Made by a program: the position numbers and the translations under genes. 12,872 bases of DNA from Pseudomonadota bacterium (lineage in GTDB: Bacteria; Pseudomonadota; Alphaproteobacteria; Rhodospirillales; Casp-alpha2). The stretch is from positions 1 through 12,872 of the forward strand of contig JAQBZY010000008.1 in assembly GCA_027620395.1 (NCBI GenBank). Direction: 5' to 3'. The notes under the pieces are model-generated. The model was not told the origin of the DNA and did not search any database. It saw only the letters and a program-made list of their open reading frames with translations. Below, piece after piece: positions 968 through 12,046 of the stretch; the stretch's first letter is position 1; every line of letters starts with the position of its first letter.

Positions 968-2455
968 ATGAGCAATCTGCAAAAATATAAAATGCTGATC
1001 GGCGGCGAGTGGGTCGATGCCGCCAGCGGCAAGCATTTCGAATCCATGAACCCCTATACCGGCAAGGCCTGGGCGCTGATCCCGGAAGGCGGCGCCGAGG
1101 ACATCGACCGGGCCGTCAAGGCCGCCAAGGCGGCGTTTGAATCCGGCCAGTGGTCCAAGATGACGGCGACGCAGCGGGGTCACCTGCTCAGGAAACTCGG
1201 CGATCTGATCGCCGAGAACGCCGACGCTCTGGCCGCCACGGAAGTCCGCGACAACGGCAAGCTGATCGCCGAGATGGGATTGCAACTCAGGTATACGCCG
1301 CAGTGGTATTATTATTTCGGCGGTTTGGCCGACAAGATCGAGGGCTCAGTCATTCCGATCGACAAGCCCGAACACTTCAATTTCACCCGGCACGAACCCT
1401 TGGGCGTCATCGCCGCGATCACGCCCTGGAACTCGCCCTTGATGCTCGCCGGCTGGAAACTGGCGCCAGCGTTGGCCGCCGGCAACACCGTGGTCCTGAA
1501 GCCGTCCGAATTCACCTCGGCATCGTCGTTGGAGTTCGGTCGGTTGTTCGAAAAAGCCGGCTTCCCACCCGGTGTCGTCAACATCGTCACCGGCTTCGGC
1601 CGTGATGCCGGCGCCGCGCTGACCTCGCATCCCGACGTCGCCAAGATCACCTTCACCGGCGGCCCCGAAACCGGCCGGCTGGTTTATGCCACCGGCGCCA
1701 AGCTTTTGAAGAAGGTCAGCCTGGAGCTTGGCGGCAAGTCGCCGAACATCGTCTTTGACGACTGCATCATCGACAACGCCGTCAAGGGCGCCATTTCCGG
1801 CATTTTCGCCGCCACCGGCCAGACCTGCATCGCTGGATCGCGGTTGTTGGTGCAGCGCTCGATCCACGATGAATTCGTCGACAAGCTGGTCGCCTTCGCC
1901 AAGACCGCCAAAATGGGCGATCCGATGTTGCCAGATACCCAGGTCGGTCCAGTGACGACTTTGCAGCAGCACGACAAAATCCTCGGCTACATCGACATCG
2001 CCAAGGGCGAAGGTGCCGAGTGCCTGTTGGGCGGCGCCAAGGCGACGCGCCCGGAATGCGGCAGCGGCTGGTTCGTCGAGCCGACGATTTTTGCCGGCGT
2101 CAACAACAGGATGCGGATTGCCCAAGAGGAGGTTTTTGGCCCGGTGCTGTCGATCATCCCGTTCGAGGACGAGGAAGAAGCGATCCATCTCGGCAACGAC
2201 GTCGCGTTTGGCTTGGCCGCCGGTATCTGGACGCAATCGATCCGCCGCGCGCTGACTGTCTCGGAAAAAATCCGCGCCGGCTCGGTCTGGGTCAACACCT
2301 ACCGCGCGGTCAGCTACATGTCGCCGTTCGGTGGCTACAAGGATTCCGGCGTCGGCCGCGAGAACGGCCAGGACGCGATCCGAGAATACATGCAAACCAA
2401 GTCCATCTGGATCAGCTACGCGACCGACACGCCCAATCCATTCGTGATGCGCTGA
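968..2455 (+). CDS. NAD(P)-dependent aldehyde dehydrogenase
   Basis: A full-length 495-residue member of the ALDH superfamily (class 1/2, betaine-aldehyde dehydrogenase-like size). It oxidises an aldehyde to a carboxylate using NAD(P)+. Signature pieces appear in order: ITPWNSP with the oxyanion Asn155, VLKPSE with cofactor-contacting Lys178, the Rossmann FTGGPETG (229-236), LELGGKSPN with general base Glu253, GQTC with catalytic Cys287, and EEVFGP with Glu389 for the nicotinamide ribose. All key residues are intact. No CoA-acylating hallmark is evident, so a free acid is the likely product. The start has only a weak purine-rich leader (GTGGG just upstream), but translation is probably coupled to the gene 21 bp before. 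An SDR follows after 4 bp. With the upstream TPP subunit, a 2-oxo acid to aldehyde to acid sequence is plausible. The natural substrate cannot be read from sequence. Confidence 0.93.
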   Translation: MSNLQKYKMLIGGEWVDAASGKHFESMNPYTGKAWALIPEGGAEDIDRAVKAAKAAFESGQWSKMTATQRGHLLRKLGDLIAENADALAATEVRDNGKLIAEMGLQLRYTPQWYYYFGGLADKIEGSVIPIDKPEHFNFTRHEPLGVIAAITPWNSPLMLAGWKLAPALAAGNTVVLKPSEFTSASSLEFGRLFEKAGFPPGVVNIVTGFGRDAGAALTSHPDVAKITFTGGPETGRLVYATGAKLLKKVSLELGGKSPNIVFDDCIIDNAVKGAISGIFAATGQTCIAGSRLLVQRSIHDEFVDKLVAFAKTAKMGDPMLPDTQVGPVTTLQQHDKILGYIDIAKGEGAECLLGGAKATRPECGSGWFVEPTIFAGVNNRMRIAQEEVFGPVLSIIPFEDEEEAIHLGNDVAFGLAAGIWTQSIRRALTVSEKIRAGSVWVNTYRAVSYMSPFGGYKDSGVGRENGQDAIREYMQTKSIWISYATDTPNPFVMR

Positions 2456-2459
2456 GCGG

Positions 2460-3212
2460 ATGGCGGAACCTAAAACCGTCCTCATCACTGGCGGCTCGCG
2501 CGGCATTGGCGCTGGTATCGTCCGGCGGTTCGCCGCCGAGGGCTGGCGGGTGATCTTCACCTATGTCTCGAACCAAGCCGCCGCCGACACAGTCGCCGCC
2601 GAAACCGGTGCCCGGGCGGCCCGCTGCGATGTCGGCGCCGAGGCCGATATCCTGGCCCTGTTCGCCACCCTCGATAGGGAAGGCGTGCGGCTCGATGCAC
2701 TGGTCAACAACGCCGGCATCACCGGGCCTAAGCGGCGGCTTTCGGAAGTGACGGCGGCAACCCTTGAGAAAGTCGCCCGGGTCAATTTCATTGGCACGGC
2801 GCTGATGTGCCGGGAAGCCGTCAAGCGGATGTCGACGGCGGCGGGCGGCCCAGGCGAAGGTAAGGGCGGCGCCATCGTCAATCTGTCGTCGACGGCGACG
2901 CTGGCCGGCGGACCCAATCAATGGATCGACTACGCGGCCCTCAAGGGCGCCATCGATGTACTGACCAATGGCCTGGCGCGGGAAGTCGGCGCCGAGGGAA
3001 TCCGCGTTAACGCCGTGGCGCCCGGCTACACCCTGACTGACATGGCCAGGGCCGGCGGCATCGCGGCCCGGTTCGATGCCTACAAGCACGAGGTGCCATT
3101 GGGCCGGATCGGCACCGTCGACGAAGTCGCGGCTGGTGTTTACTGGCTATGTTCGGACGACGCCACCTACGTCACCGGCACCGTGCTCCCGGTCGCCGGC
3201 GGCAGGTGCTGA
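2460..3212 (+). CDS. SDR family NAD(P)-dependent oxidoreductase (FabG-like)
   Basis: A 250-residue classical short-chain dehydrogenase/reductase. The N-terminal cofactor motif TGGSRGIG is at residues 10-17, NNAG at 83-86, the helix-4 Asn at 109, and the catalytic Ser143/Ser144, Tyr158 and Lys162 (YAALK). The C-terminal VLPVAGG closes the fold as in FabG-like enzymes. Arg14 in the glycine motif weakly favours NADP(H). A Gly-rich insertion (about 127-137) between helix 4 and the catalytic serine strand is slightly unusual. The gene starts 4 bp after the aldehyde dehydrogenase stop, so the two are almost certainly co-translated; it ends the plus-strand run and is followed by palindromic repeats. 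It probably oxidises or reduces an alcohol/ketone intermediate of the same pathway, with the substrate unknown. Confidence 0.92.
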   Translation: MAEPKTVLITGGSRGIGAGIVRRFAAEGWRVIFTYVSNQAAADTVAAETGARAARCDVGAEADILALFATLDREGVRLDALVNNAGITGPKRRLSEVTAATLEKVARVNFIGTALMCREAVKRMSTAAGGPGEGKGGAIVNLSSTATLAGGPNQWIDYAALKGAIDVLTNGLAREVGAEGIRVNAVAPGYTLTDMARAGGIAARFDAYKHEVPLGRIGTVDEVAAGVYWLCSDDATYVTGTVLPVAGGRC

Positions 3213-3356: not shown

Positions 3357-4190
3357 CTAGCCCTCGTCGTGCGCCAAGGCCAAATCGGCGAGCGCCCCGT
3401 CGGCAGGGTTGAAATTCAACATGGTTCTGAGAAACCGTTGCAACACCGGCCGCACCCGCCTAGCGAGATCGATGTTGTAAAGATACGGCGGCTCCTCGTC
3501 CATGTAGGTGGCCCAGCTTTGTTCTAGCTGCATGGCGTGGACGCCATTTGCCGGATCGCCATAGTGCCGTGTGATGTAGCCGCCGACGTAGCGGCCGTTC
3601 AAGACGTGGGTGTAGCCGACCAGTCCGACCGCCACTTCCTTGATCCGGGATTCCAAGGCCGGCGCGCAGGTCTTGCCGTGGTTGGTGCCGAAATTGAGAT
3701 CCCAGAGCTTGCCGTTGAAATACCTGGGCAGCCGGCTCTTGATCGAGTGCGCATCCCACAAAAGCGCGTAGCCATGCTTGGCCCTGATCTCGTCGAGGGT
3801 TTCCTTGAGTTTGCCGTGGAAGGGCTGCCAATAGGTCTCGCAACGCTTGCCGACCTCGTCCTGGCTCGGCTCCTCGCCGGGTTTGTAAATCGGATCCTTG
3901 CGCCCCGTCGCCAAGGGGCAAAGTCCCTCTGAATCCTGGCCCGGATAAAGCTTTGCATCGTCCGGCGGCCGGTTCAAATCGACGACGAAGCGGCTGTGCG
4001 TCGCGATCAGCATCGCCGCCCCCATGGCCGGCGCGAAATCGTAAAGCCTATCGACGTTCCAATCGGTGTCCGGCAATTCGTCGGCGACCGCCGACATCCG
4101 CGCCTTCAATTTTTCCGGAATGTGCGTGCCGGCATGCGGCACGCTGACCAGAAGCGGCGTCGTTCCCGCCGTGAATTTAAAAATTTCCAT
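3357..4190 (-). CDS. hutG: N-formylglutamate deformylase (N-formylglutamate amidohydrolase, HutG-like)
   Basis: A 277-residue cytosolic metal-dependent hydrolase of the N-formylglutamate amidohydrolase family. It hydrolyses N-formyl-L-glutamate to glutamate and formate, the last step of one histidine-degradation route. Family features are clear: SVPHAGTHIP (16-25), TDWNVDRLYDFA (42-53), THSRFVVDLNRPP (64-76), LLWDAHSIKSRLPRYFNGK (143-161) with DLNFGTN after it, and a C-terminal LEQSWATYMDE. The size is normal for HutG. ATG 4190 is chosen because the open frame upstream overlaps the amidase coding sequence; an AGCGG/GGAG purine stretch precedes it, and the start lies 4 bp after the amidase stop. 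No other hut gene is in view, so the true substrate might be another N-formyl or N-acyl amino acid. The symbol reflects family, not proven pathway. Confidence 0.85.
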   Translation of the reverse strand: MEIFKFTAGTTPLLVSVPHAGTHIPEKLKARMSAVADELPDTDWNVDRLYDFAPAMGAAMLIATHSRFVVDLNRPPDDAKLYPGQDSEGLCPLATGRKDPIYKPGEEPSQDEVGKRCETYWQPFHGKLKETLDEIRAKHGYALLWDAHSIKSRLPRYFNGKLWDLNFGTNHGKTCAPALESRIKEVAVGLVGYTHVLNGRYVGGYITRHYGDPANGVHAMQLEQSWATYMDEEPPYLYNIDLARRVRPVLQRFLRTMLNFNPADGALADLALAHDEG

Positions 4191-4194
4191 GCCG

Positions 4195-5049
4195 CTACTC
4201 CGCCGCCCGTTCAATAATCCCGCTGCCGATGATTTCATAAGGCCGGTCGTGCTTGAGCGACGGAATCCGGCCCCGCGCCTTGCCGACTTCGGCCGGATCG
4301 ATATCGGCCAGCACGATGGCTTCTTGATCCTCCGGACCCTCGGCCAGGATATCGCCCCAGGGCCCGACGACCAAGGAATGTCCATAGGTGCGGGCCTTGC
4401 CGTGAGTGCCCGATTGGCAGGTGGCAAATACGAAGCAACCGGTCTCGATGGCGCGGGCCCGCAACAGGATGTGCCAGTGCGCCTGACCGCTTTTATGCGT
4501 GAAGGCGGCCGGACAGGTCAGGAAACTGGCCCCAGCCTTGGCCAGATCGCGGTAGAGGTGCGGAAACCTGACATCATAGCAGATCGAGAGCCCCATCGGC
4601 CCCCATGGCGTTTCCGTCAGCACCGCCCGTTCGCCAGGGCAGAGGCTGGCCGATTCCCGGTAGCGGTCGTCGTCGCCGAGATTGACGTCGAACAGATGAA
4701 TTTTGTCGTAGGTTGCTTGCACATCGCCGGCGGCGTCGATGACAAATTGCCGGTTATAGGACCGCCCGTCCGGCGCCGGCACGGTCAGGGAACCCAGCAC
4801 GGTCCAAACGCCGTTGTCGCGGGCGAAGGTTCGGAACATGGCCAATCCCGGATGCGCGGCTTCAGACCTGGGGTCGGTGTGGATGCCCTTGTCGTCGACG
4901 CCGTAGCAGGAAAAGAACTCCGGCAGCACAATCAGCCGGGCGCCGCCGGCAACCGCGTCCGTCGCCAACTCGCGGGCCCGAGCCAGAGTTTTCGCCATGT
5001 CGGCGCTGGCGCAATTTTGGACCAAACCGACTTTGAAAGTATCGTTCAT
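4195..5049 (-). CDS. Carbon-nitrogen hydrolase (nitrilase superfamily, Nit1/Nit2-like omega-amidase or deaminated glutathione amidase type)
   Basis: A 284-residue single-domain nitrilase-superfamily protein. The Glu-Lys-Cys triad is visible: Glu44 in VLPEFF, Lys116 in YDKIHLFDV and Cys157 in LSICYDVRFPHLYRDL. The DKIHLFDV segment, together with TGCFVFATCQSG and the GHSLVVGPWGDIL strand pair, is typical of the Nit branch. That branch includes omega-amidase (2-oxoglutaramate, 2-oxosuccinamate) and deaminated glutathione amidase. The expected reaction is hydrolysis of an amide to acid plus ammonia in the cytoplasm. The ATG at 5049 follows an AAGGAA-type ribosome site about eight bases upstream. 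It is the first gene of a two-gene operon with the HutG-like deformylase. Both hydrolyse C-N bonds of glutamate-like compounds, which suggests a shared nitrogen-salvage task. Assignment within the Nit branch is uncertain. Confidence 0.85.
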   Translation of the reverse strand: MNDTFKVGLVQNCASADMAKTLARARELATDAVAGGARLIVLPEFFSCYGVDDKGIHTDPRSEAAHPGLAMFRTFARDNGVWTVLGSLTVPAPDGRSYNRQFVIDAAGDVQATYDKIHLFDVNLGDDDRYRESASLCPGERAVLTETPWGPMGLSICYDVRFPHLYRDLAKAGASFLTCPAAFTHKSGQAHWHILLRARAIETGCFVFATCQSGTHGKARTYGHSLVVGPWGDILAEGPEDQEAIVLADIDPAEVGKARGRIPSLKHDRPYEIIGSGIIERAAE

Positions 5050-5179
5050 CCGGAAATTCCTTGCTCCTGGACTTAATCACGACGCCGGTCGATTGTCCAT
5101 TGGGGGCCAAGTCCAAGCCCTTTTTCCTGGGTCGATGCGGTGCTAATTTTCCTTGAAGAACATATGGGGAGGAACCGGA
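5050..5179. promoter_or_regulatory. Divergent intergenic region with presumed promoters for both operons
   Basis: This 130-bp gap separates the minus-strand amidase operon from the plus-strand ligase operon and must hold promoters for both, unless they start farther away. I see an interrupted palindrome, TTGG-GGG-CCAA, at 5100-5110 and an AT-rich GCTAATTTT near 5142-5150, which could be a minus-10-like element. No convincing minus-35/minus-10 pair with correct spacing was found. The location is well supported; the exact sites are not. Confidence 0.4.
5168..5174 (+). promoter_or_regulatory. Strong ribosome binding site for the GTG-started acyl-CoA ligase
   Basis: GGAGGAA-like purines lie five bases before GTG 5180. 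A TTG at 5153 in the same frame would place this Shine-Dalgarno inside the gene, so GTG 5180 is the better start. Confidence 0.7.
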
Positions 5180-6838
5180 GTGGCCAAAAAGCTGCCATCC
5201 ACGCCGATTTACGAGACCGGCCTCGATAAGACGGCGGCCAACTACCAGCCGTTGACGCCACTGTCGTTTCTCGATTGGGCGGCCCGCGTCTATCCGGACC
5301 GGACGGCGGTCATTCACGGGCCTTACCGCTCGACGTGGCGCGCCGTCGATCAGCGCTGCAAGCGCCTGGCGACGGCGCTGATGAAACTCGGCATCGGCAA
5401 GGGCGACACGGTCTCGATCATGTCGCCGAACGCGCCGGCGATGCTGGAGGCACACTACGGCGTGCCGATGTCGGGCGCGGTTCTGAATTCCCTGAATTAC
5501 CGGCTCGACGCCGACACCATTGCCTTCATTCTCGGCCATGCCGAAACCAAGGTTCTGATCACCGATCGGGAATTTTCGGGCGTGATTTCCGACGCCTTGG
5601 CCATTCACGGCGACACCGATATCACGGTGATCGATGTCGATGATCCGCTGGCCGAAGGCGGCCGACTGATCGGCGACATGACCTACGAAACATTTCTCGA
5701 AAGCGGTGATCCGGATTTCGAATGGCAACCGCCCGAGGACGAATGGCAGGCGATCTGTCTTAACTACACTTCCGGCACCACCGGCAATCCGAAGGGCGTC
5801 GTCTATCATCACCGGGGTGCCTTTCTGAATGCGCTCGGCAATGCCTTGGTATTCCGCTTGGGACGGGAGAGCGTCTATTTGTGGACGCTGCCGATGTTTC
5901 ACTGCAACGGTTGGAGCTATCCGTGGGCGGTGACGTCTGTCGGCGGCACCCATGTGTGCCTCCGGAAAATCGATCCGGGGCTGATCTTCCCGCTGATCGC
6001 CGAGCATGGCGTGACGCATATGTGCGGCGCGCCGATCGTCTTGAACATGTTGGTGCATGCGCCCGATAGCGTGAAGCGCAAGTTCGAGCATCGGATCGAG
6101 GTCGCCACCGGTGGCGCCGCGCCGCCGAGCGCGGTGATCGCCAAGATGGGCGCCATGGGATTCAACGTCACGCATTTGTATGGCCTGACCGAATCCTACG
6201 GCCCCTCGACAGTGTGCGCATGGCAAGACGAATGGGATGGCCTCGATATTGACGCCAAGGCGCTCAAGATGTCGCGCCAAGGCGTGCGCTATCCGACGCT
6301 CTATGACCAGTCGGTCAGAGATCCCGAAACCATGCAACCGGTGCCGGACGACGGCGAGACCATCGGCGAGATCATGCTCAAATCGAACACCGTCATGAAG
6401 GGCTATCTGAAGAATCCAAAAGCAACCGAGGCGGCGTTCCGCGGCGGCTGGTTTCACACTGGCGATCTGGCGGTGCAGCACGCCGACGGTTATCTGGAAA
6501 TCAAGGACCGCTCGAAGGATATCATCATATCCGGCGGCGAAAACATTTCCTCATTGGAAATCGAGGAATGCCTGTATCGGCATCCCGGCGTCATGGAATG
6601 CGCCGTCGTCGCCATGCCTGACGATAAATGGGGCGAGGTGCCTTGCGCCTTCGTCACTCCCATTGCCGCTGCCGAGGGAATGCTGTCTGGTAAGGATCTG
6701 ATCGATTGGTGCAAGGACCGGATCGCGCGTTACAAGGCGCCGGCACGGGTCGTGTTCGGGCCGCTTCCGAAAACGTCAACCGGCAAAATTCAAAAATTCG
6801 TGCTGCGCGAACAGGCCAAGGAGCTAACGAAGAAATGA
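5180..6838 (+). CDS. Acyl-CoA ligase (AMP-forming; LvaE/DmdB/fatty acyl-CoA synthetase type)
   Basis: A 552-residue member of the ANL adenylating superfamily. It activates a carboxylic acid with ATP and CoA to the acyl-CoA plus AMP. Conserved pieces from the GTG start: the phosphate-binding YTSGTTGNPKG (196-206), LPMFHCNGWSYPW (237-249), YGLTE (334-338), the ribose-binding GWFHTGDL with Asp429, hinge DRSKD with Arg444, and the C-terminal PKTSTGKIQ with catalytic Lys536. The N-terminal TPLSFLDWAARVYPDRTAVIHG and the AHYGVPMSGAVLN stretch are typical of short/medium-chain ligases such as DmdB and AlkK. It leads a five-gene operon and overlaps the next gene by 4 bp. By context it corresponds to LvaE of the levulinate/4-hydroxyvalerate pathway and would supply a 4-oxo- or 4-hydroxyacyl-CoA. 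The enzyme class is sure; the substrate is inference. Confidence 0.93.
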   Translation: MAKKLPSTPIYETGLDKTAANYQPLTPLSFLDWAARVYPDRTAVIHGPYRSTWRAVDQRCKRLATALMKLGIGKGDTVSIMSPNAPAMLEAHYGVPMSGAVLNSLNYRLDADTIAFILGHAETKVLITDREFSGVISDALAIHGDTDITVIDVDDPLAEGGRLIGDMTYETFLESGDPDFEWQPPEDEWQAICLNYTSGTTGNPKGVVYHHRGAFLNALGNALVFRLGRESVYLWTLPMFHCNGWSYPWAVTSVGGTHVCLRKIDPGLIFPLIAEHGVTHMCGAPIVLNMLVHAPDSVKRKFEHRIEVATGGAAPPSAVIAKMGAMGFNVTHLYGLTESYGPSTVCAWQDEWDGLDIDAKALKMSRQGVRYPTLYDQSVRDPETMQPVPDDGETIGEIMLKSNTVMKGYLKNPKATEAAFRGGWFHTGDLAVQHADGYLEIKDRSKDIIISGGENISSLEIEECLYRHPGVMECAVVAMPDDKWGEVPCAFVTPIAAAEGMLSGKDLIDWCKDRIARYKAPARVVFGPLPKTSTGKIQKFVLREQAKELTKK

Positions 6839-7599
6839 CCGAACCAGCGCCGCTCACGGGCAAAATTGCCCTCGTTACCGGAGCGTCGAGCGGCATCGGC
6901 GCACATATCGCCAAGTTACTGGCCAGCAACGGCGCCCGGGTTTGCATCGCCGCCCGCCGCCGTGACCGGCTCGCCGATCTCGCCCACGAAATCGATGCCG
7001 GGGGCGGCAAGGCTTTTGCCGTCGGCATGGATGTCACCGAGCGCGTCAGCGTCGTCGCGGCTTTGGATGAAATTCTCCGCGAAGTCGGACCCCCCAGTAT
7101 TCTGGTCAACAATGCCGGCGTCGCCTCCGGCGCCAATGCGCTCGATGTCACCGATGAGGATTGGCGGCGTGTCATCGACACAAACCTGCAAGGCGCCTGG
7201 ATCGCGGCCCAGGAAACCGCCAAGCGGATGCGCGATGCCGGCGGCGGGGTGATCGTCAACACCGCTTCGATCCTCGGTTTGCGGGTCTCGCCGGGCGTCG
7301 CGCCGTATGCAATCTCCAAGGCCGGCATCGTGCAAATGACCAAAGTCATGGCGCTCGAACTGGCGCGTTATAATATTCGCGTCAATGCCATTGCGCCCGG
7401 TTACATCGCGACCGACATCAATCAGGAATTTCTGGCGTCCGACGTCGGCCAGGCGATGATCAAGCGGATTCCGATGCGCCGGGTCGGCCAAATGAGCGAT
7501 CTCGACGGCCCGATGCTGTTGTTGGTTTCGGATGCGTCCGTCTACATGACCGGCGCCGTCATCCCAGTCGACGGCGGACACTTGGTCAGCAGCCTTTGA
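6835..7599 (+). CDS. SDR family oxidoreductase (LvaD-like position in operon)
   Basis: A 254-residue classical SDR. TGASSGIG lies at 15-22, an AARR segment at the end of strand 2 (39-42), NNAG at 92-95, Asn117, Ser145, Tyr158 and Lys162 (YAISK), with PVDGG near the C-terminus. The two arginines after strand 2 favour NADP(H). The start is ATG 6835 in an ATGA overlap with the ligase stop, preceded by AAGGAG at 6818-6823; farther upstream starts would lie inside the ligase gene. It is not a duplicate of the SDR at 2460, since the sequences differ along most of their length. In P. putida the SDR LvaD reduces levulinyl-CoA to 4-hydroxyvaleryl-CoA, and this gene holds the matching place between the ligase and the dehydrogenase. 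A 4-oxoacyl-CoA/4-hydroxyacyl-CoA role is inferred from that context. Confidence 0.92.
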   Translation: MTEPAPLTGKIALVTGASSGIGAHIAKLLASNGARVCIAARRRDRLADLAHEIDAGGGKAFAVGMDVTERVSVVAALDEILREVGPPSILVNNAGVASGANALDVTDEDWRRVIDTNLQGAWIAAQETAKRMRDAGGGVIVNTASILGLRVSPGVAPYAISKAGIVQMTKVMALELARYNIRVNAIAPGYIATDINQEFLASDVGQAMIKRIPMRRVGQMSDLDGPMLLLVSDASVYMTGAVIPVDGGHLVSSL

Positions 7600-7621
7600 T
7601 CTAAAATTGGAGCGAACGCAC

Positions 7622-8506
7622 ATGCCGATGACTGCACGGAACGGAGTGAAGCTTTACTTCGAAGAAACCGGCACCGGCATGCCGATCCTGTTTCTGCATG
7701 AGTTCGCCGGCGATCATCGAAGTTGGGAGCAGCAGGTCCGGCATTTCACCAGGGATCACCGCTGCATCGTCACCGCCGGCCGCGGCTATCCACCCTCCGA
7801 CGTGCCGGCAAATGAATCCGACTATGGCCAGGACATCGCCATTGCCGATGCCGTGGCCGTGCTCGACCATCTGAAAATCGAGCGCGCCGTCGTCATTGGC
7901 CTTTCCATGGGCGCATACACGGCGCTCCGGATCGCCATGGAACATCCGAAACGGGTCATCGCCGCCGTCGCGGCGTCGGGCGGTTCCGGATCCTGGACCA
8001 TCCAACAAGCGACCTTTTCCGGCGAGGCCAAGAAGCTTTCGGCGCGAATATTGAAGGAAGGGAAAATCCCCGCCGACGATTTCGCCAACGGCCCAACCCG
8101 CACCCAGCTCCGCCGTAAGGATCCGCGCGGCTGGGCCGAGTTCCGCGATCTGATGGCCGGTCGGCCGGCCATGGGGGCCGCCATGACGCTGGCCCGCGTA
8201 CAGGCCGAGCGGCCCTCGTTGATGGGGTTCGAGGCCGAATTCAAGGCCTGCAAGGTGCCGACGCTTTTAATGGTCGGCGACGAGGACGAAGCCTGCATCG
8301 ACATCAACGTCTGGCTAAAACGGATCATGCCCGCCGCTGGGTTGGTGATGTTCCCGAAGTGCGGGCACCTGATGAATCTTGAGGAACCGGGACGGTTTAA
8401 TGCCGAGATCGCCGAATTCCTCCGCGCCGTGCATGGCGGCGCCTGGCCGTTTCGGGAAGCCGCCACCGGCACCTTCGGCGGCGTCGGGCCGGCGGAGAAG
8501 CCTTGA
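7622..8506 (+). CDS. Alpha/beta hydrolase (possible lactone/ester hydrolase)
   Basis: A 294-residue cytosolic alpha/beta-hydrolase fold protein. An oxyanion-hole segment LFLHEFAGDHRSW (23-35) is followed by the nucleophile elbow GLSMG with Ser95, an acid turn VGDEDEAC with Asp220 (or Asp222), and the catalytic His249 in KCGHLMNLEEP. A cap domain of about 85 residues lies between Ser95 and Asp220. The overall pattern is that of MhpC and 3-oxoadipate enol-lactonase relatives. The C-terminal 24 residues are Gly/Pro-rich and probably disordered. ATG 7622 is chosen from GGAG at 7609-7612 with nine-base spacing. The gene starts 22 bp after the SDR and ends 45 bp before the acyl-CoA dehydrogenase. 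It has no counterpart in the lva operon; opening a gamma-lactone to a 4-hydroxy acid, or cleaving an ester or thioester, would fit. The fold is certain, the substrate unknown. Confidence 0.88.
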   Translation: MPMTARNGVKLYFEETGTGMPILFLHEFAGDHRSWEQQVRHFTRDHRCIVTAGRGYPPSDVPANESDYGQDIAIADAVAVLDHLKIERAVVIGLSMGAYTALRIAMEHPKRVIAAVAASGGSGSWTIQQATFSGEAKKLSARILKEGKIPADDFANGPTRTQLRRKDPRGWAEFRDLMAGRPAMGAAMTLARVQAERPSLMGFEAEFKACKVPTLLMVGDEDEACIDINVWLKRIMPAAGLVMFPKCGHLMNLEEPGRFNAEIAEFLRAVHGGAWPFREAATGTFGGVGPAEKP

Positions 8507-8551
8507 TACTGTGCTCTGAACCCGCTACCCGGTGCCGATAGAGAGGTCGCC

Positions 8552-9763
8552 ATGGATTTCACGCTACCCACCGAGATTGAGGAAACCCGCCAGGCGATCC
8601 GCGCCTTTGTCGATGCTCGGATCATTCCGCTTGAGGCGGACCAGAAGAACTACGACGCGCACGAGAACATCCGCTTGGATGTGCTCGATGCCGTCCGGGC
8701 CGAGGCCAAGGCCAAAGGGCTGTGGGCGCTGTCGATGCCGAAGGCGCGCGGCGGCCGTGGTTTCTCGACTGTCGGCATGGCCGCTTGTTACGAGGAGATG
8801 AACCGTTCGATCTTCGGGCCGGCGGCATTCAACGCCGCCGCTCCCGACGACGGCAATATGGTCGTGCTTAACCGCGTCGCCACCGAGGCGCAAAAAGATA
8901 AATGGCTGCAACCGATCGTCGACGGCGAGGTCCGGTCCGCCATCGTCATGACCGAGCCGGCCCCCGGGGCCGGTTCCGATCCGGCCGGCATGATGCTGAC
9001 CCGGGCCGAAAAGAAAGGCGGCAAGTGGGTCGTGCACGGTCGCAAGTGGTTCATCACTGGCGCCGAGGCGGCCAGCCACTTCATCTTGTTGGCCCGCACC
9101 TCCGACGACAACCGCCGCAACCTGACCGCGTTCCTGTATCACAAGGATCAGCCGGGCTGGAAGATCGAGCGGCGGATTCCGGTCATGGGGCCGGAAGAGC
9201 ACGGCGGCCATTGCGAGCTCACCTTCGACGGCCTCGAGATTCCCGATGAGAACCGGCTGATGGGCGTCGGTGAAGGCATGAAATGCGTGCAGATCCGCTT
9301 GGCCACCGCCAGGCTGACGCACTGCATGCGTTGGACCGGCCTGGCCAAGCGCTCGCTCGAAATCGCCAACGATTACATCGCCGAGCGCAAGGCCTTCGGT
9401 GAGACCTTGGCCGACAAGGAAAGCGTGCAGATGCTTTTGGGCGACTCAGCCCTCGGGATCGAGATCGGTCGGCTTTTGACCATGCGCGCCGCCTGGGCCT
9501 TGGATCAAGGCTCGCGCGGCCGCAAAGAAGTCTCGATGGCCAAGGTGGTGGTCGCCGATGCGCTGCAAAAGGCCGTCGACACCGCGATCCAACTTTGCGG
9601 CGCCAAGGGATATTCCAAGGACACCGTGCTTGAATGGATTTACCGCTATGCCCGCCAGGCGCGCCTAGTCGATGGCGCGTCGGAAGTCCACAAGATGGTG
9701 CTGGCCGGACAGCTCCGCGACAACGGCCTCAATTTCTGGAGTTGGGGAGCGACGGACGCCTGA
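8552..9763 (+). CDS. Acyl-CoA dehydrogenase, ACAD10/11-like (LvaC-like)
   Basis: A 403-residue FAD-dependent acyl-CoA dehydrogenase-fold protein of normal length. Visible features are the substrate/FAD loop VMTEPAPGAGSD (132-143), KWFITGA (165-171), GGHCELTFDGLEIP (218-231), RLTHCMRWTGLAKRSLE (254-270), the FAD-binding CGAKG (349-353), and RLVDGASEVH (371-380). The HCMR-x-x-GLA segment and an Asp (374) where ordinary acyl-CoA dehydrogenases have catalytic Glu are features of the ACAD10/ACAD11 branch. Members of that branch act with an APH-fold kinase: 4-hydroxyacyl-CoA is phosphorylated and the phosphate eliminated to an enoyl-CoA. The kinase is the very next gene, sharing 1 bp. A GAGAGG ribosome site precedes ATG 8552. 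Plain alpha,beta-dehydrogenation is the alternative, but the branch features and the neighbour argue against it. Confidence 0.9.
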   Translation: MDFTLPTEIEETRQAIRAFVDARIIPLEADQKNYDAHENIRLDVLDAVRAEAKAKGLWALSMPKARGGRGFSTVGMAACYEEMNRSIFGPAAFNAAAPDDGNMVVLNRVATEAQKDKWLQPIVDGEVRSAIVMTEPAPGAGSDPAGMMLTRAEKKGGKWVVHGRKWFITGAEAASHFILLARTSDDNRRNLTAFLYHKDQPGWKIERRIPVMGPEEHGGHCELTFDGLEIPDENRLMGVGEGMKCVQIRLATARLTHCMRWTGLAKRSLEIANDYIAERKAFGETLADKESVQMLLGDSALGIEIGRLLTMRAAWALDQGSRGRKEVSMAKVVVADALQKAVDTAIQLCGAKGYSKDTVLEWIYRYARQARLVDGASEVHKMVLAGQLRDNGLNFWSWGATDA

Positions 9764-11106
9764 TGGACGCCGACACCACCAAACGTCTGGAAGCCTGGCT
9801 TTCCAAGGAGGCCGGCGGGGCCGTCAAGATCGAGGGCATGGCGCGGCTTTCGGGCGGCGCCATTCAGGAGAACTGGCGCGTCCAATTGGATGTCACGGGC
9901 GGTACGTGGGAGGGCCATCACGATCTGGTGCTGAGGAAGGACGCGCCCTCCGGTGTCGCCGTCAGCCACGGCCGGGCAGCGGAGTTTCGGATACTGAAGC
10001 TCGCTCACAAATCAAGCGTCCTGGCGCCGACGCCCTGCGTGCTCTGCGAGGATACATCGGTCCTCGGGACTCCGTTTTTCATGATGCATCACATCCCCGG
10101 TGCGTCGCTGCGCCAGCCGCTGACCAAGGGGCCGCCGAACGAGGATCTGGTCGCCGATTTAGGCCGCAATCTCGCCCGCATCCACGCGATTTCCGGCGCC
10201 GAGAAACTGGAGTTTCTCGGCAAGCCGACGGCGACACCGGCCGACGCCAGCCTCGCCGACTACCGCCATCACTTGGACAAACTGCCGGACGCGCATCCGG
10301 CGCTCGAATGGGCGATGGCGTGGCTTCGGGAGAACGCTCCGGCGACTCAATCCGTCGCCTTCTGCCATCGCGATTTCCGGACCGGCAACTATCTGGTCGA
10401 GGACGGCAAACTGACGGCAATCCTCGATTGGGAATTCGCCGGCTGGTCGGACCCGATGGAAGACATCGGCTGGTTCACCGCCAAGTGCTGGCGCTTCGGC
10501 GGCATCGACCGGGAAGCCGGCGGCGCAGGCACGCTCGACGCTTTTCTCGCCGGTTACGAGGAAGTCAGCAAGAAGCCGGTCGAGCGCGCCGCCATACCCT
10601 ATTGGCAGGTGATGGCGCACCTGCGCTGGGCGGTGATCGCGTTGCAGCAGGCCGACCGTTTCGTCAGCGGCGGCGAGCGCAATCTGGAACTCGCCCTGAC
10701 AGCGCATATCGTGCCGGAATTGGAGCTGGAAATCCTTCGCATGACGGCGCCCGAGGGCAATCTGATCGGCGTCGATGCCGGCGAGCTTCGAACGATCGAA
10801 CGGCCGGCACCGTCGCTAGCCCAGCTCCTGGATATGGCTCGGGACGTGATCAGGAACGATCTCGCCAAATCTTTGGATGGCGAGGCCAAGTACAAGGCGC
10901 TGATGGCGGCCAACGCAATGGCCATCGTCGGCCGGCAAATCTCCGGGCTCGGGCTCGATCCGACGGCCGGTCAAGAAGTCAGGCGCGGCTTGGCGGAGCG
11001 CATTCGGAACGGCAAGGCGGCGCTCACACCCGATATCCACGCCGAGTTGATCATCGCGCTCGAGACGACGCTGGCCGAAAGCAATCCGCGCGCGCTTGAA
11101 AGATAG
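9763..11106 (+). CDS. APH-fold kinase fused to a C-terminal DUF6285/LvaB-like domain (LvaA-LvaB-like fusion)
   Basis: A 447-residue protein. Residues about 25-300 form an aminoglycoside-phosphotransferase-type kinase: Lys59 in LVLRK, Glu74 in the C-helix, catalytic loop CHRDFRTGNYL with Asp204 and Asn209, and metal-binding Asp222 in LDWEFAGWSDPMEDIGW. No antibiotic-resistance role is suggested; this is the ACAD10/11 and LvaA type, which phosphorylates 4-hydroxyacyl-CoA. Residues about 345-447 form an added helical segment, PAPSLAQLLDMARDVIRNDL followed by KYKALMAANAMAIVGRQI, resembling DUF6285 proteins such as the small LvaB partner that LvaA needs. Naming that domain from memory of the pattern is less certain than the kinase. 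ATG 9763 overlaps the dehydrogenase stop (TGATG), implying translational coupling. Farther upstream in-frame starts lie inside the dehydrogenase gene. It ends the operon, just before palindromic repeats. Confidence 0.87.
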   Translation: MDADTTKRLEAWLSKEAGGAVKIEGMARLSGGAIQENWRVQLDVTGGTWEGHHDLVLRKDAPSGVAVSHGRAAEFRILKLAHKSSVLAPTPCVLCEDTSVLGTPFFMMHHIPGASLRQPLTKGPPNEDLVADLGRNLARIHAISGAEKLEFLGKPTATPADASLADYRHHLDKLPDAHPALEWAMAWLRENAPATQSVAFCHRDFRTGNYLVEDGKLTAILDWEFAGWSDPMEDIGWFTAKCWRFGGIDREAGGAGTLDAFLAGYEEVSKKPVERAAIPYWQVMAHLRWAVIALQQADRFVSGGERNLELALTAHIVPELELEILRMTAPEGNLIGVDAGELRTIERPAPSLAQLLDMARDVIRNDLAKSLDGEAKYKALMAANAMAIVGRQISGLGLDPTAGQEVRRGLAERIRNGKAALTPDIHAELIIALETTLAESNPRALER

Positions 11107-11116
11107 CACCGCCTCC

Positions 11117-11176
11117 CCCTTCGTTACGGCGCTCCGCGCTTCCTCACCCTTCGAGACGGCGCTCCGCGCCTCCTCA
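11117..11176. repeat. 30-bp tandem duplication of a half repeat unit
   Basis: Two adjacent 30-base units (11117-11146 and 11147-11176) both read CCCTTCG-xxx-CGGCGCTCCGCGC-y-TCCTCA. They differ at only a few bases (TTA versus AGA, T versus C). The second copy continues into full repeat A. It looks like a slippage or recombination duplication of the left half of the palindrome. Confidence 0.8.
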
Positions 11177-11184
11177 GGATGAGG
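11147..11184. repeat. Dispersed palindromic repeat, copy A
   Basis: This starts CCCTTCGAGACG and ends CCTCAGGATGAGG. The core GGCGC-TCC-GCGCC (11158-11170) is a perfect 5-bp stem with a 3-base loop. Its orientation is opposite to copies B and C and the same as copy D at 3226. It begins about 40 bp after the stop codon of the kinase operon, so it may help end or protect that mRNA. Confidence 0.8.
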
Positions 11185-11213
11185 TCAAGGGTGCTGCAAA
11201 CTTCCACCATCTT

Positions 11214-11257
11214 CTCATCCTGAGGAGCGAGCCGTGCGAGCGTCTCGAAAGATGAGG
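11214..11257. repeat. Dispersed palindromic repeat, copy B
   Basis: This runs from CTCATCCTGAGGAGCGAG to GCGTCTCGAAAGATGAGG, with outer arms CTCATC/GATGAG. It is followed by GATGAGGTCAAGGGTGCAGC, which also follows copy A with one change, so about 23 bp of flanking sequence is shared. Confidence 0.82.
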
Positions 11258-11289
11258 TCAAGGGTGCAGCAAAAACTTTCCGCCATGCC

Positions 11290-11330
11290 CTCATCCTGAG
11301 GAGCGAGCCATGCGAGCGTCTCGAAGGATG
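11290..11330. repeat. Dispersed palindromic repeat, copy C
   Basis: This matches copy B at nearly every base from CTCATCCTGAGGAGCGAG to GCGTCTCGAAGGATG, in the same orientation, 76 bp after the start of B. The trailing GAGG is lost. B and C form a direct tandem pair. Confidence 0.82.
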
Positions 11331-11404
11331 CCGCGACGTAAAACATCTTGAAATAACCGCCCAACGCATCATCTTACGGTATCGACTAAATTCGAGGACC
11401 CGCC

Positions 11405-12046
11405 ATGCACATCGATATTTTCTCCGATCCCGTCTGCCCATGGTGCCTGATCGGCAAGCGGCGCCTGGAAAAGGCCCTGGCCAGCCGGCCCATCGAAGGC
11501 CTGACGATATCCTGGCGGCCGTTCCAGTTGCACCCGCAGATGCCCAAGGAAGGCGCCGACCGGGCCGAGTTCACGGCCGCCAAGTTTGGCTCCAAGGAGC
11601 GCGCGGCCGCTGTCTACGAGCGGGTTTCCGGCGTCGGCCAGACCGAAGGGCTCGATTTCCGATTCGATCTGATCAAGCGTTCGCCGAACACCGTCGATGC
11701 GCACCGGCTGATCGTCTTGGCCGGCAGCAAGGGCAAGATCAACGATGTGGTCGAGGGATTGTTCGCCGCCTTCTTTTTCGAAGGCCGTGACATCAGCGAC
11801 TTGAATGTCCTGATCGATGTCGCCACGGCCGCCGGCATGGATACAGATGCTGTTCGGACCTATCTTGAGTCCAATCAGGACCGCGACGACGTGATCCAGG
11901 CTGACGAGGAGGCCCGCCGGCTCGGCATCGAAGGCGTGCCGTATTTCGTCATCGACGGCAAGTACGGCATTTCCGGCGCCCAGGCACCTGAGACCTTCGT
12001 CCAGACCTTCGAGCAGGTGCTGGCGGAAAAAGCCGCCGCTGACTGA
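11405..12046 (+). CDS. DsbA-family oxidoreductase, FrnE / 2-hydroxychromene-2-carboxylate isomerase-like
   Basis: A 213-residue thioredoxin-fold protein with a helical insertion, of the FrnE/HCCA-isomerase-like DsbA group. The redox motif is FSDPVCPWCLIGKRRLE with Cys11-Pro-Trp-Cys14. The cis-proline loop is GVPYFVIDGKYGISGAQ with Pro179, and the insertion spans roughly residues 50-160. With CPWC at residue 11 and no signal peptide it is cytoplasmic, unlike true periplasmic DsbA. Relatives act as thiol-disulfide oxidoreductases in stress defence; those lacking the second cysteine act in glutathione-dependent isomerisation. Both cysteines here favour redox chemistry. GAGGA six bases before ATG 11405 supports the start. 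It appears to be a single-gene unit between repeats and a convergent neighbour whose stop lies 6 bp away. The client is unknown. Confidence 0.88.
   Translation: MHIDIFSDPVCPWCLIGKRRLEKALASRPIEGLTISWRPFQLHPQMPKEGADRAEFTAAKFGSKERAAAVYERVSGVGQTEGLDFRFDLIKRSPNTVDAHRLIVLAGSKGKINDVVEGLFAAFFFEGRDISDLNVLIDVATAAGMDTDAVRTYLESNQDRDDVIQADEEARRLGIEGVPYFVIDGKYGISGAQAPETFVQTFEQVLAEKAAAD

Follow-up and report, generated by a model that had tools for sequence, protein, structure and literature searches.

Does the five-gene cluster at positions 5180-11106 of contig JAQBZY010000008.1 encode a rearranged form of the lva pathway, in which a 4-hydroxyacyl-coenzyme A (CoA) is phosphorylated and the phosphate is then eliminated, and if so, is levulinate its substrate? 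The contig, which we analysed over its complete length of 12,872 bases and refer to as the window, comes from a draft genome (2.2 Mb in 441 contigs, 67% complete) whose closest named relatives are Rhodospirillales draft genomes. The cluster was first noticed in a reading of the DNA made without database searches (the sequence-only reading), which likened it to the lva operon of Pseudomonas putida in exactly reversed order. The comparisons described below make it highly probable that the window carries an lva-type operon for CoA activation, phosphorylation of a 4-hydroxyl group and elimination of phosphate; a transporter/decarboxylase/aldehyde dehydrogenase (ALDH) module upstream probably feeds it.

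An operon with counterparts of LvaA to LvaE

The five consecutive genes described in the sequence-only reading are all intact open reading frames (ORFs) on the + strand with the boundaries it had given them, and Pfam assigns every one: an acyl-CoA ligase (AMP-binding, PF00501, E 3e-78; 5180..6838), a short-chain dehydrogenase/reductase (SDR; PF13561/PF00106; 6835..7599), an alpha/beta hydrolase (PF00561; 7622..8506), an acyl-CoA dehydrogenase (ACAD; 8552..9763) and a kinase of the APH fold (9763-11106). The two overlapping junctions and the short gaps were likewise confirmed: the ligase stop and SDR start overlap in ATGA at 6835-6838, the ACAD stop TGA (9761-9763) and the kinase ATG (9763) share one base (TGATG), and gaps of 22 and 45 nt separate SDR from hydrolase and hydrolase from ACAD, respectively. 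The ligase starts with GTG at 5180, and an alternative TTG lies upstream at 5153. A simple sigma-70-like promoter scan of positions 4900-11500 gave no sites, against a mean of 1.4 in shuffled sequence.

Comparison with lva was made through a named homologue, the operon of the P. aeruginosa plasmid p12939-PER (locus L008), as a stand-in for P. putida; its order is regulator, kinase, LvaB, ACAD, SDR, ligase, DUF485, ActP. Both operons have a LvaA-type kinase, LvaB, an ACAD of the LvaC superclade with the same seven active-site residues, a LvaD-type SDR and a LvaE-type ligase, in co-linear arrangement. In contrast to lva, the window has the order ligase-SDR-hydrolase-ACAD-kinase·LvaB (E-D-hydrolase-C-A·B), LvaA and LvaB are fused, the ACAD (43% identical) lies on a separate branch and there is an extra alpha/beta hydrolase. 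The order is not the exact reverse of lvaA-B-C-D-E, since in the last gene the LvaA part still precedes the LvaB part. The assignment as a probable 4-hydroxyacyl-CoA phosphorylation/elimination operon is nevertheless supported by the identities to LvaA-E, the ACAD signature and the fused LvaB. Homology, active-site residues, fusion and synteny are established directly by the sequence.

The locus counts given below refer to 88 related loci, namely the best 80 of 490 confirmed genome-scan loci and 8 plasmid loci; because only the best 80 were kept, these counts describe the loci nearest the query. Loci extend at most 9 kb to each side, many contigs being shorter. Counts of window-type loci (n = 49) exclude the window itself, and LvaC-type loci number 30.

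The last gene joins LvaA and LvaB in one chain

The N-terminal part of the last gene (residues 1 to ~336; 9763..10770) matches PF01636 (E 1.3e-38) and shares 48.6% and 52% identity with the LvaA proteins of two named lva operons (p12939-PER and L007, respectively), which points to a LvaA-like 4-hydroxyacyl-CoA kinase. Two alignments, one of 18 and one of 24 sequences, show no variation at its catalytic residues H202-R203-D204...N209 and D222 (HRD...N, DWE). An antibiotic-resistance APH was ruled out, since the NCBIfam APH(3') model scores 33 bits against a cut-off of 205 bits and the identity points to LvaA.

In calling this gene an APH-fold kinase the sequence-only reading was right about the kinase domain and missed a C-terminal LvaB domain (DUF6285; residues ~347-447; 10801..11103). 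Residues 370-443 match Pfam DUF6285 (PF19802) above the cut-off, and the C-terminus matches a profile built from 55 separately encoded LvaB proteins with an hhalign probability of 99.2% (E 2.6e-19). In the p12939-PER record the gene after the kinase is lvaB, annotated '4-hydroxypentanoyl-CoA kinase subunit LvaB', and a Stutzerimonas protein in the LvaB slot carries the annotation DUF6285. From these matches and annotations we conclude that the last gene is LvaA·LvaB in one chain, the LvaB part being 36% identical to LvaB of p12939-PER. An AlphaFold2 model of the whole fusion chain was graded fair (predicted local distance difference test, pLDDT, 79.8; predicted template modelling score, pTM, 0.80). 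A free-standing LvaB (L075) gave a confident model that is helical throughout (pLDDT 93, pTM 0.70), and a comparison of this model with the PDB gave no clear structural match.

LvaB is fused to the kinase in 11 of the 88 related loci and adjoins it in 73 (84 of 88 together); it was not seen in four, one of which (L034) ends inside the kinase gene. At least four changes are needed to account for the fusion across a tree of 91 kinases. The fused groups are the window's clade (7 rows), a clade of four rows (L029, L041, L048 and L081) and two singles, L047 and L062, both draft-genome loci in which the fusion may be an assembly error, L062 also sitting on a long branch. This tree and the ACAD tree described below came from quick searches with support from the Shimodaira-Hasegawa-like approximate likelihood ratio test (SH-aLRT), and in both the program flagged long branches meeting. 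In P. putida KT2440 a LvaA pull-down brought LvaB along, and lvaA, lvaB and lvaC are each required for growth on levulinate, on which the deletion strains fail (PMC6692424).

Two further observations concern the neighbourhood of LvaAB in other loci. In LvaC-type and plasmid clusters (L005, L007, L009, L011, L052, L057, L064 and others) the gene after LvaB is often one of the histidine-phosphatase family. On a Cupriavidus pinatubonensis plasmid (L012) a kinase-DUF6285 pair lies beside genes for an indolepyruvate ferredoxin oxidoreductase, an SDR and a thiolase, with no ACAD annotated within the 19 kb inspected; here a 2-oxo-acid enzyme again adjoins LvaAB.

The ACAD belongs to a third branch within the ACAD11/LvaC clade

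The best solved relatives of the ACAD are 4hr3, 2wbi and 8v3u/8v3v (ACAD11), and over the matched parts it shares 42.8% identity with the LvaC stand-in of p12939-PER, 37% with 4hr3 and 35% with mouse ACAD11. A tree was built from 66 ACADs, with window-type rows subsampled to 24, LvaC-type rows to 18 and three weak rows excluded. In it a single clade (SH-aLRT 100) unites the window-type (24), LvaC-type (18) and ACAD11-type (4) enzymes with one Thermus enzyme, and the remaining 19 rows all fall outside it. The window-type and LvaC-type branches each have an SH-aLRT of 100, and the window ACAD lies in the sister branch, outside the LvaC clade. The likeness to mammalian ACAD11 proposed earlier thus holds for the clade and the signature; the window ACAD is outside the ACAD11 subclade, on a third branch. 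Both proteins lie within the ACAD10/11-LvaA/LvaC clades, a placement on which the sequence-only reading had depended, the ACAD by its position in this tree and the kinase by its identity to LvaA.

Residues R249...R254..H257-C258-M259-R260 of the ACAD (9296..9331) align with R626, R631, H634, C635, M636 and R637 of mouse ACAD11 and by equivalence would form the 4-phosphate site, and D374 (9671..9673) is the equivalent of the catalytic base D753. Substitution of R626, H634 or R637 in ACAD10/11 blocks the ACAD step, R637K only partly (PMC12440821). Counted on all rows, all 50 window-type ACADs (window included), all 30 LvaC-type ACADs and mouse ACAD11 have the seven-position signature RRHCMRD, which includes the catalytic Asp. 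The signature also occurs in three of the 25 other rows (L009, L097 and L077_5481), all inside the clade, and the other 22 are without the full set. In 4hr3 an A replaces the C of HCMR; when 4hr3 is scored positive, the CMR label changes once across the ACAD tree. An ordinary dehydrogenase was rejected on clade membership and active-site signature. As judged from both, the window ACAD belongs to a third branch within the ACAD11/LvaC clade and is an enzyme of the same kind, with elimination of phosphate from a 4-phosphoacyl-CoA as its proposed reaction.

The source genome also has a separate ACAD11-like ACAD (L097; RLGPGRIHHCMR motif) that shares 60% identity with mouse ACAD11, as well as another APH kinase, 29% identical to that of the window; the two are on different contigs, G000:C72 (L097/L140) and G000:C230 (L001/L139). 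Because of these two genes, a second phosphorylate-and-eliminate system is possible in the source genome.

The ligase, the SDR and the hydrolase

The ligase and LvaE of p12939-PER are 57.9% identical and both exceed the cut-off of the NCBIfam subfamily PRK08162. The SDR is 52.6% identical to LvaD of the same operon and 55-60% identical to the cluster SDRs of L005, L006, L007, L010 and L011, consistent with a LvaD-like 4-oxoacyl-CoA/4-hydroxyacyl-CoA oxidoreductase.

The best PDB relative of the hydrolase is 5egn (E 1.4e-26, residues 1-123), which we take to be Est816, reportedly an N-acyl-homoserine lactone lactonase. The best NCBIfam model, the enol-lactonase PcaD, scores 87.8 bits, under its cut-off of 255.9. 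Residues S95, D220, D222 and H249 are at least 90% conserved in an alignment of 11 rows representing nine distinct genes (L099 belongs to the window, and L129 and L014 are one gene). By BLAST count, seven of the 49 other window-type loci have a homologue of the hydrolase, L028 giving only short matches. Since gamma-lactones arise by cyclisation of 4-hydroxy acids and of their CoA esters, the hydrolase probably opens such lactones, as a proposed gamma-lactonase or salvage esterase.

A transporter and decarboxylase module upstream of the operon

The left edge of the window truncates a larger island, visible in the four nearest relatives with long enough contigs. The first ORF, cut by the contig edge, encodes the beta subunit of a thiamine diphosphate (ThDP)-dependent 2-oxoacid decarboxylase (PF02775; 3..503, +), whose linkage in relatives suggests that it likely belongs to the same pathway. 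It is followed by an NTF2-like protein (Lumazine_bd_2, PF12893; 539..946, +), an ALDH (PF00171, E 7.5e-181; 968..2455, +) and a second SDR (PF13561, with orthologues 72-74% identical; 2460..3212, +), and then, on the - strand, by an N-formylglutamate amidohydrolase-like gene (3357-4199) and a nitrilase (deaminated-glutathione-amidase-like, below cut-off; 4195-5049). Directly downstream of the operon is a DsbA-family thioredoxin-fold gene (11405-12046, +), homologues of which occur in 10 of the 49 other window-type loci, there on the opposite strand and upstream of the ligase.

In the relatives G042, G043, G045 (a single-contig chromosome) and G046 the island begins with the three genes of a tripartite tricarboxylate transporter (Tct) and reads TctC-TctB-TctA-decarboxylase alpha-beta-NTF2-like-ALDH-SDR-(nitrilase)-ligase-SDR-hydrolase-ACAD-kinase·LvaB, with the NTF2-like protein, ALDH, SDR and nitrilase in the same places as in the window. 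Between island SDR and ligase the nitrilase is on the other strand in all four and the formylglutamase is also present in two, and in G042 no separate ORF was called for the decarboxylase alpha subunit. The absence of an lva-type transporter or regulator noted in the sequence-only reading is therefore true within the window, and near relatives have a transporter just past the cut edge. These relatives belong to a genus group (g14) of eight genomes that shares the fused kinase, which was found in six. The contigs of G040 and G044 end within the island region. G041 and G047 have a decarboxylase beta orthologue (80% and 84% identical) with no kinase match, and transporter-decarboxylase genes are present in G041.

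In a second group of loci (L022, L026, L027, L032, L035 and L051; Pfam assignments are those of the L022 and L035 proteins) the decarboxylase pair precedes the ligase either immediately or at a distance of one ORF, and Tct genes were detected in five of the six. In L027, L032 and L051 decarboxylase and ligase are immediate neighbours, and no ALDH intervenes. Within the flanks fetched, the decarboxylase pair occurs in 8 of 49 window-type loci versus none of 30 LvaC-type loci. In L022 the two subunits, alpha with 170 aa and beta with 200 aa, best match models of sulfopyruvate/phosphonopyruvate decarboxylases, two-subunit ThDP enzymes of the ComDE type, with all scores below the curated cut-offs. 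Identification as a true sulfopyruvate decarboxylase was dropped for that reason, and the 2-oxo acid of this decarboxylase probably differs from sulfopyruvate and phosphonopyruvate.

A survey of 48 family genomes, in which decarboxylase beta was assessed by the best match per genome, found the window-type ACAD in 33, with the kinase adjoining every time, and a decarboxylase beta orthologue (at least 55% identity) in 32 of these 33. By hand tally, no more than 14 kb separates the decarboxylase beta gene from the kinase in 16 of the 33, spread over five genus groups, and in 15 of these 16 both genes share a strand; in most other genomes the two are on different contigs.

Proposed pathway and alternative explanations

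We infer each reaction, the lactonase role and the substrate from characterised relatives. The ligase would convert an acid to its 4-oxo- or 4-hydroxyacyl-CoA, and the SDR, needed if the acid is 4-oxo, would interconvert the two. The kinase·LvaB fusion would then phosphorylate the 4-hydroxyacyl-CoA to a 4-phosphoacyl-CoA, from which the ACAD, with flavin adenine dinucleotide, D374 as base and the phosphate held by R249, H257 and R260, would release phosphate to give a 2-enoyl-CoA for beta-oxidation. Lactone opening by the hydrolase would return the 4-hydroxy acid, and the upstream Tct/ThDP decarboxylase/ALDH module probably supplies the acid.

Several facts weigh against this interpretation. 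Identity between the ACAD and characterised types or their stand-ins is no higher than 35-43%, and window-type ACADs and the fused kinase are known from sequence alone. The ORFs and Pfam assignments of the window include no LvaR, LvaF or LvaG (DUF485/ActP) gene. As to the decarboxylase, its beta gene is 0.7-0.8 Mb from the kinase in the single-contig genomes G031 and G032, an orthologue occurs in 9 of 15 family genomes that have no window-type ACAD (G041 and G047 among them), and G037 (L134/L138) has transporter, decarboxylase and ALDH genes near a ligase and SDR with no such kinase or ACAD. Given the linkage within 14 kb in 16 of 33 genomes, and these operon-free or distant occurrences, the tie between decarboxylase and pathway is real but not obligate.

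These occurrences also bear on a different account, in which the operon, like ACAD10/11, handles medium-chain 4-hydroxy fatty acids and the adjoining island has nothing to do with it. We regard this as somewhat unlikely: the presence of the decarboxylase in genomes that have no window-type ACAD and its unlinked position in G031 and G032 would suit it, but the linkage across five genus groups, nearly always on one strand, and the loci in which decarboxylase abuts ligase do not, and the separate ACAD11-like ACAD of the source genome could serve longer 4-hydroxy acids. That the locus is a plain levulinate or 4-hydroxyvalerate operon, with the P. putida substrate and merely rearranged genes, is unlikely. 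LvaA to LvaE are all represented, as that account requires, and the ligase belongs to the LvaE subfamily; the ACAD, however, forms a separate branch, and LvaR-like genes occur in only 2 of 49 window-type loci versus 8 of 30 LvaC-type loci, ActP-like genes in 0 of 49 versus 3 of 30. Moreover, the relatives have TctCBA and a ThDP decarboxylase, often with an ALDH, none of which levulinate would need. With this module in the relatives' island ahead of the operon, levulinate is probably not the imported substrate, and the same module and the rarity of LvaR/LvaG-like genes strengthen the earlier caution that the substrate may differ from levulinate.

It is very improbable that the kinase acts on a hydroxyl group elsewhere on a larger molecule, with the ACAD using its product or being a normal dehydrogenase. 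By E-value the top Foldseek match of the predicted kinase is indeed a 25-hydroxysteroid kinase (9fsg), and that enzyme too serves a phosphorylate-then-eliminate sequence, in sterol degradation (PMC8449060). Fold rank, however, reflects which structures have been solved, no listed PDB match was named LvaA, and the far higher sequence identity to LvaA, the fused LvaB and the 4-phosphate signature of the ACAD all argue for the lva-type assignment.

The lva-type operon thus preferred resembles other systems in part. Mammalian ACAD11 and ACAD10, kinase-ACAD fusions acting on 4-hydroxyacyl-CoA, share with it an APH kinase and an ACAD with the catalytic Asp and the R/HCMR phosphate site, whereas in the window the kinase and ACAD are separate chains, the kinase being fused to LvaB instead, and the HAD domain of ACAD10 has no counterpart. 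The Sterolibacterium denitrificans 25-hydroxysteroid kinase likewise uses the APH fold to phosphorylate an alcohol ahead of elimination, but the alcohol is a tertiary steroid alcohol with no CoA link; in the 2021 paper (PMC8449060) its lyase had yet to be identified. Relatives of the window differ from the lva operon itself in their transporter and in the ThDP decarboxylase upstream.

A bolder version of the preferred scheme would make the whole island a single pathway, which we consider doubtful. The Tct transporter would import a 2-oxo dicarboxylate or a precursor of one, and the ThDP decarboxylase would produce a 4-oxo aldehyde-acid, succinate semialdehyde or a substituted form, itself a 4-oxo acid. 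The ligase would then give a 4-oxoacyl-CoA and the SDR a 4-hydroxybutyryl-type CoA, which kinase·LvaB would phosphorylate and the third-branch ACAD convert to a crotonyl-type CoA. The ALDH would provide a side exit, which fits its absence between decarboxylase and ligase in L027, L032 and L051. 4-Hydroxybutyryl-CoA dehydratase is a radical enzyme; if true, the single pathway would be an ATP-driven, oxygen-tolerant replacement for it.

Implications for the lva and ACAD10/11 families

The chemistry of phosphorylation followed by elimination is already known from lva and ACAD10/11. Rand et al. (PMC6692424) reportedly detected lvaABCD homologues in Alpha-, Beta- and Gammaproteobacteria, so lva-type genes in Alphaproteobacteria are not themselves new. 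Three features are new as far as we have searched: LvaA fused to LvaB, the third branch of ACADs and the link to the Tct/ThDP-decarboxylase module. Among the open-licence articles listed, as represented by their titles and abstract openings, none describes any of the three. The natural LvaA-LvaB fusions fall in four separate kinase groups, two of them with several members, and thereby provide independent genetic evidence that LvaB acts as a kinase subunit. The phosphorylate-then-eliminate route, for its part, has a third ACAD branch: of 48 genomes searched in this family 33 carry it, 16 of them with a 2-oxoacid decarboxylase gene no more than 14 kb away.

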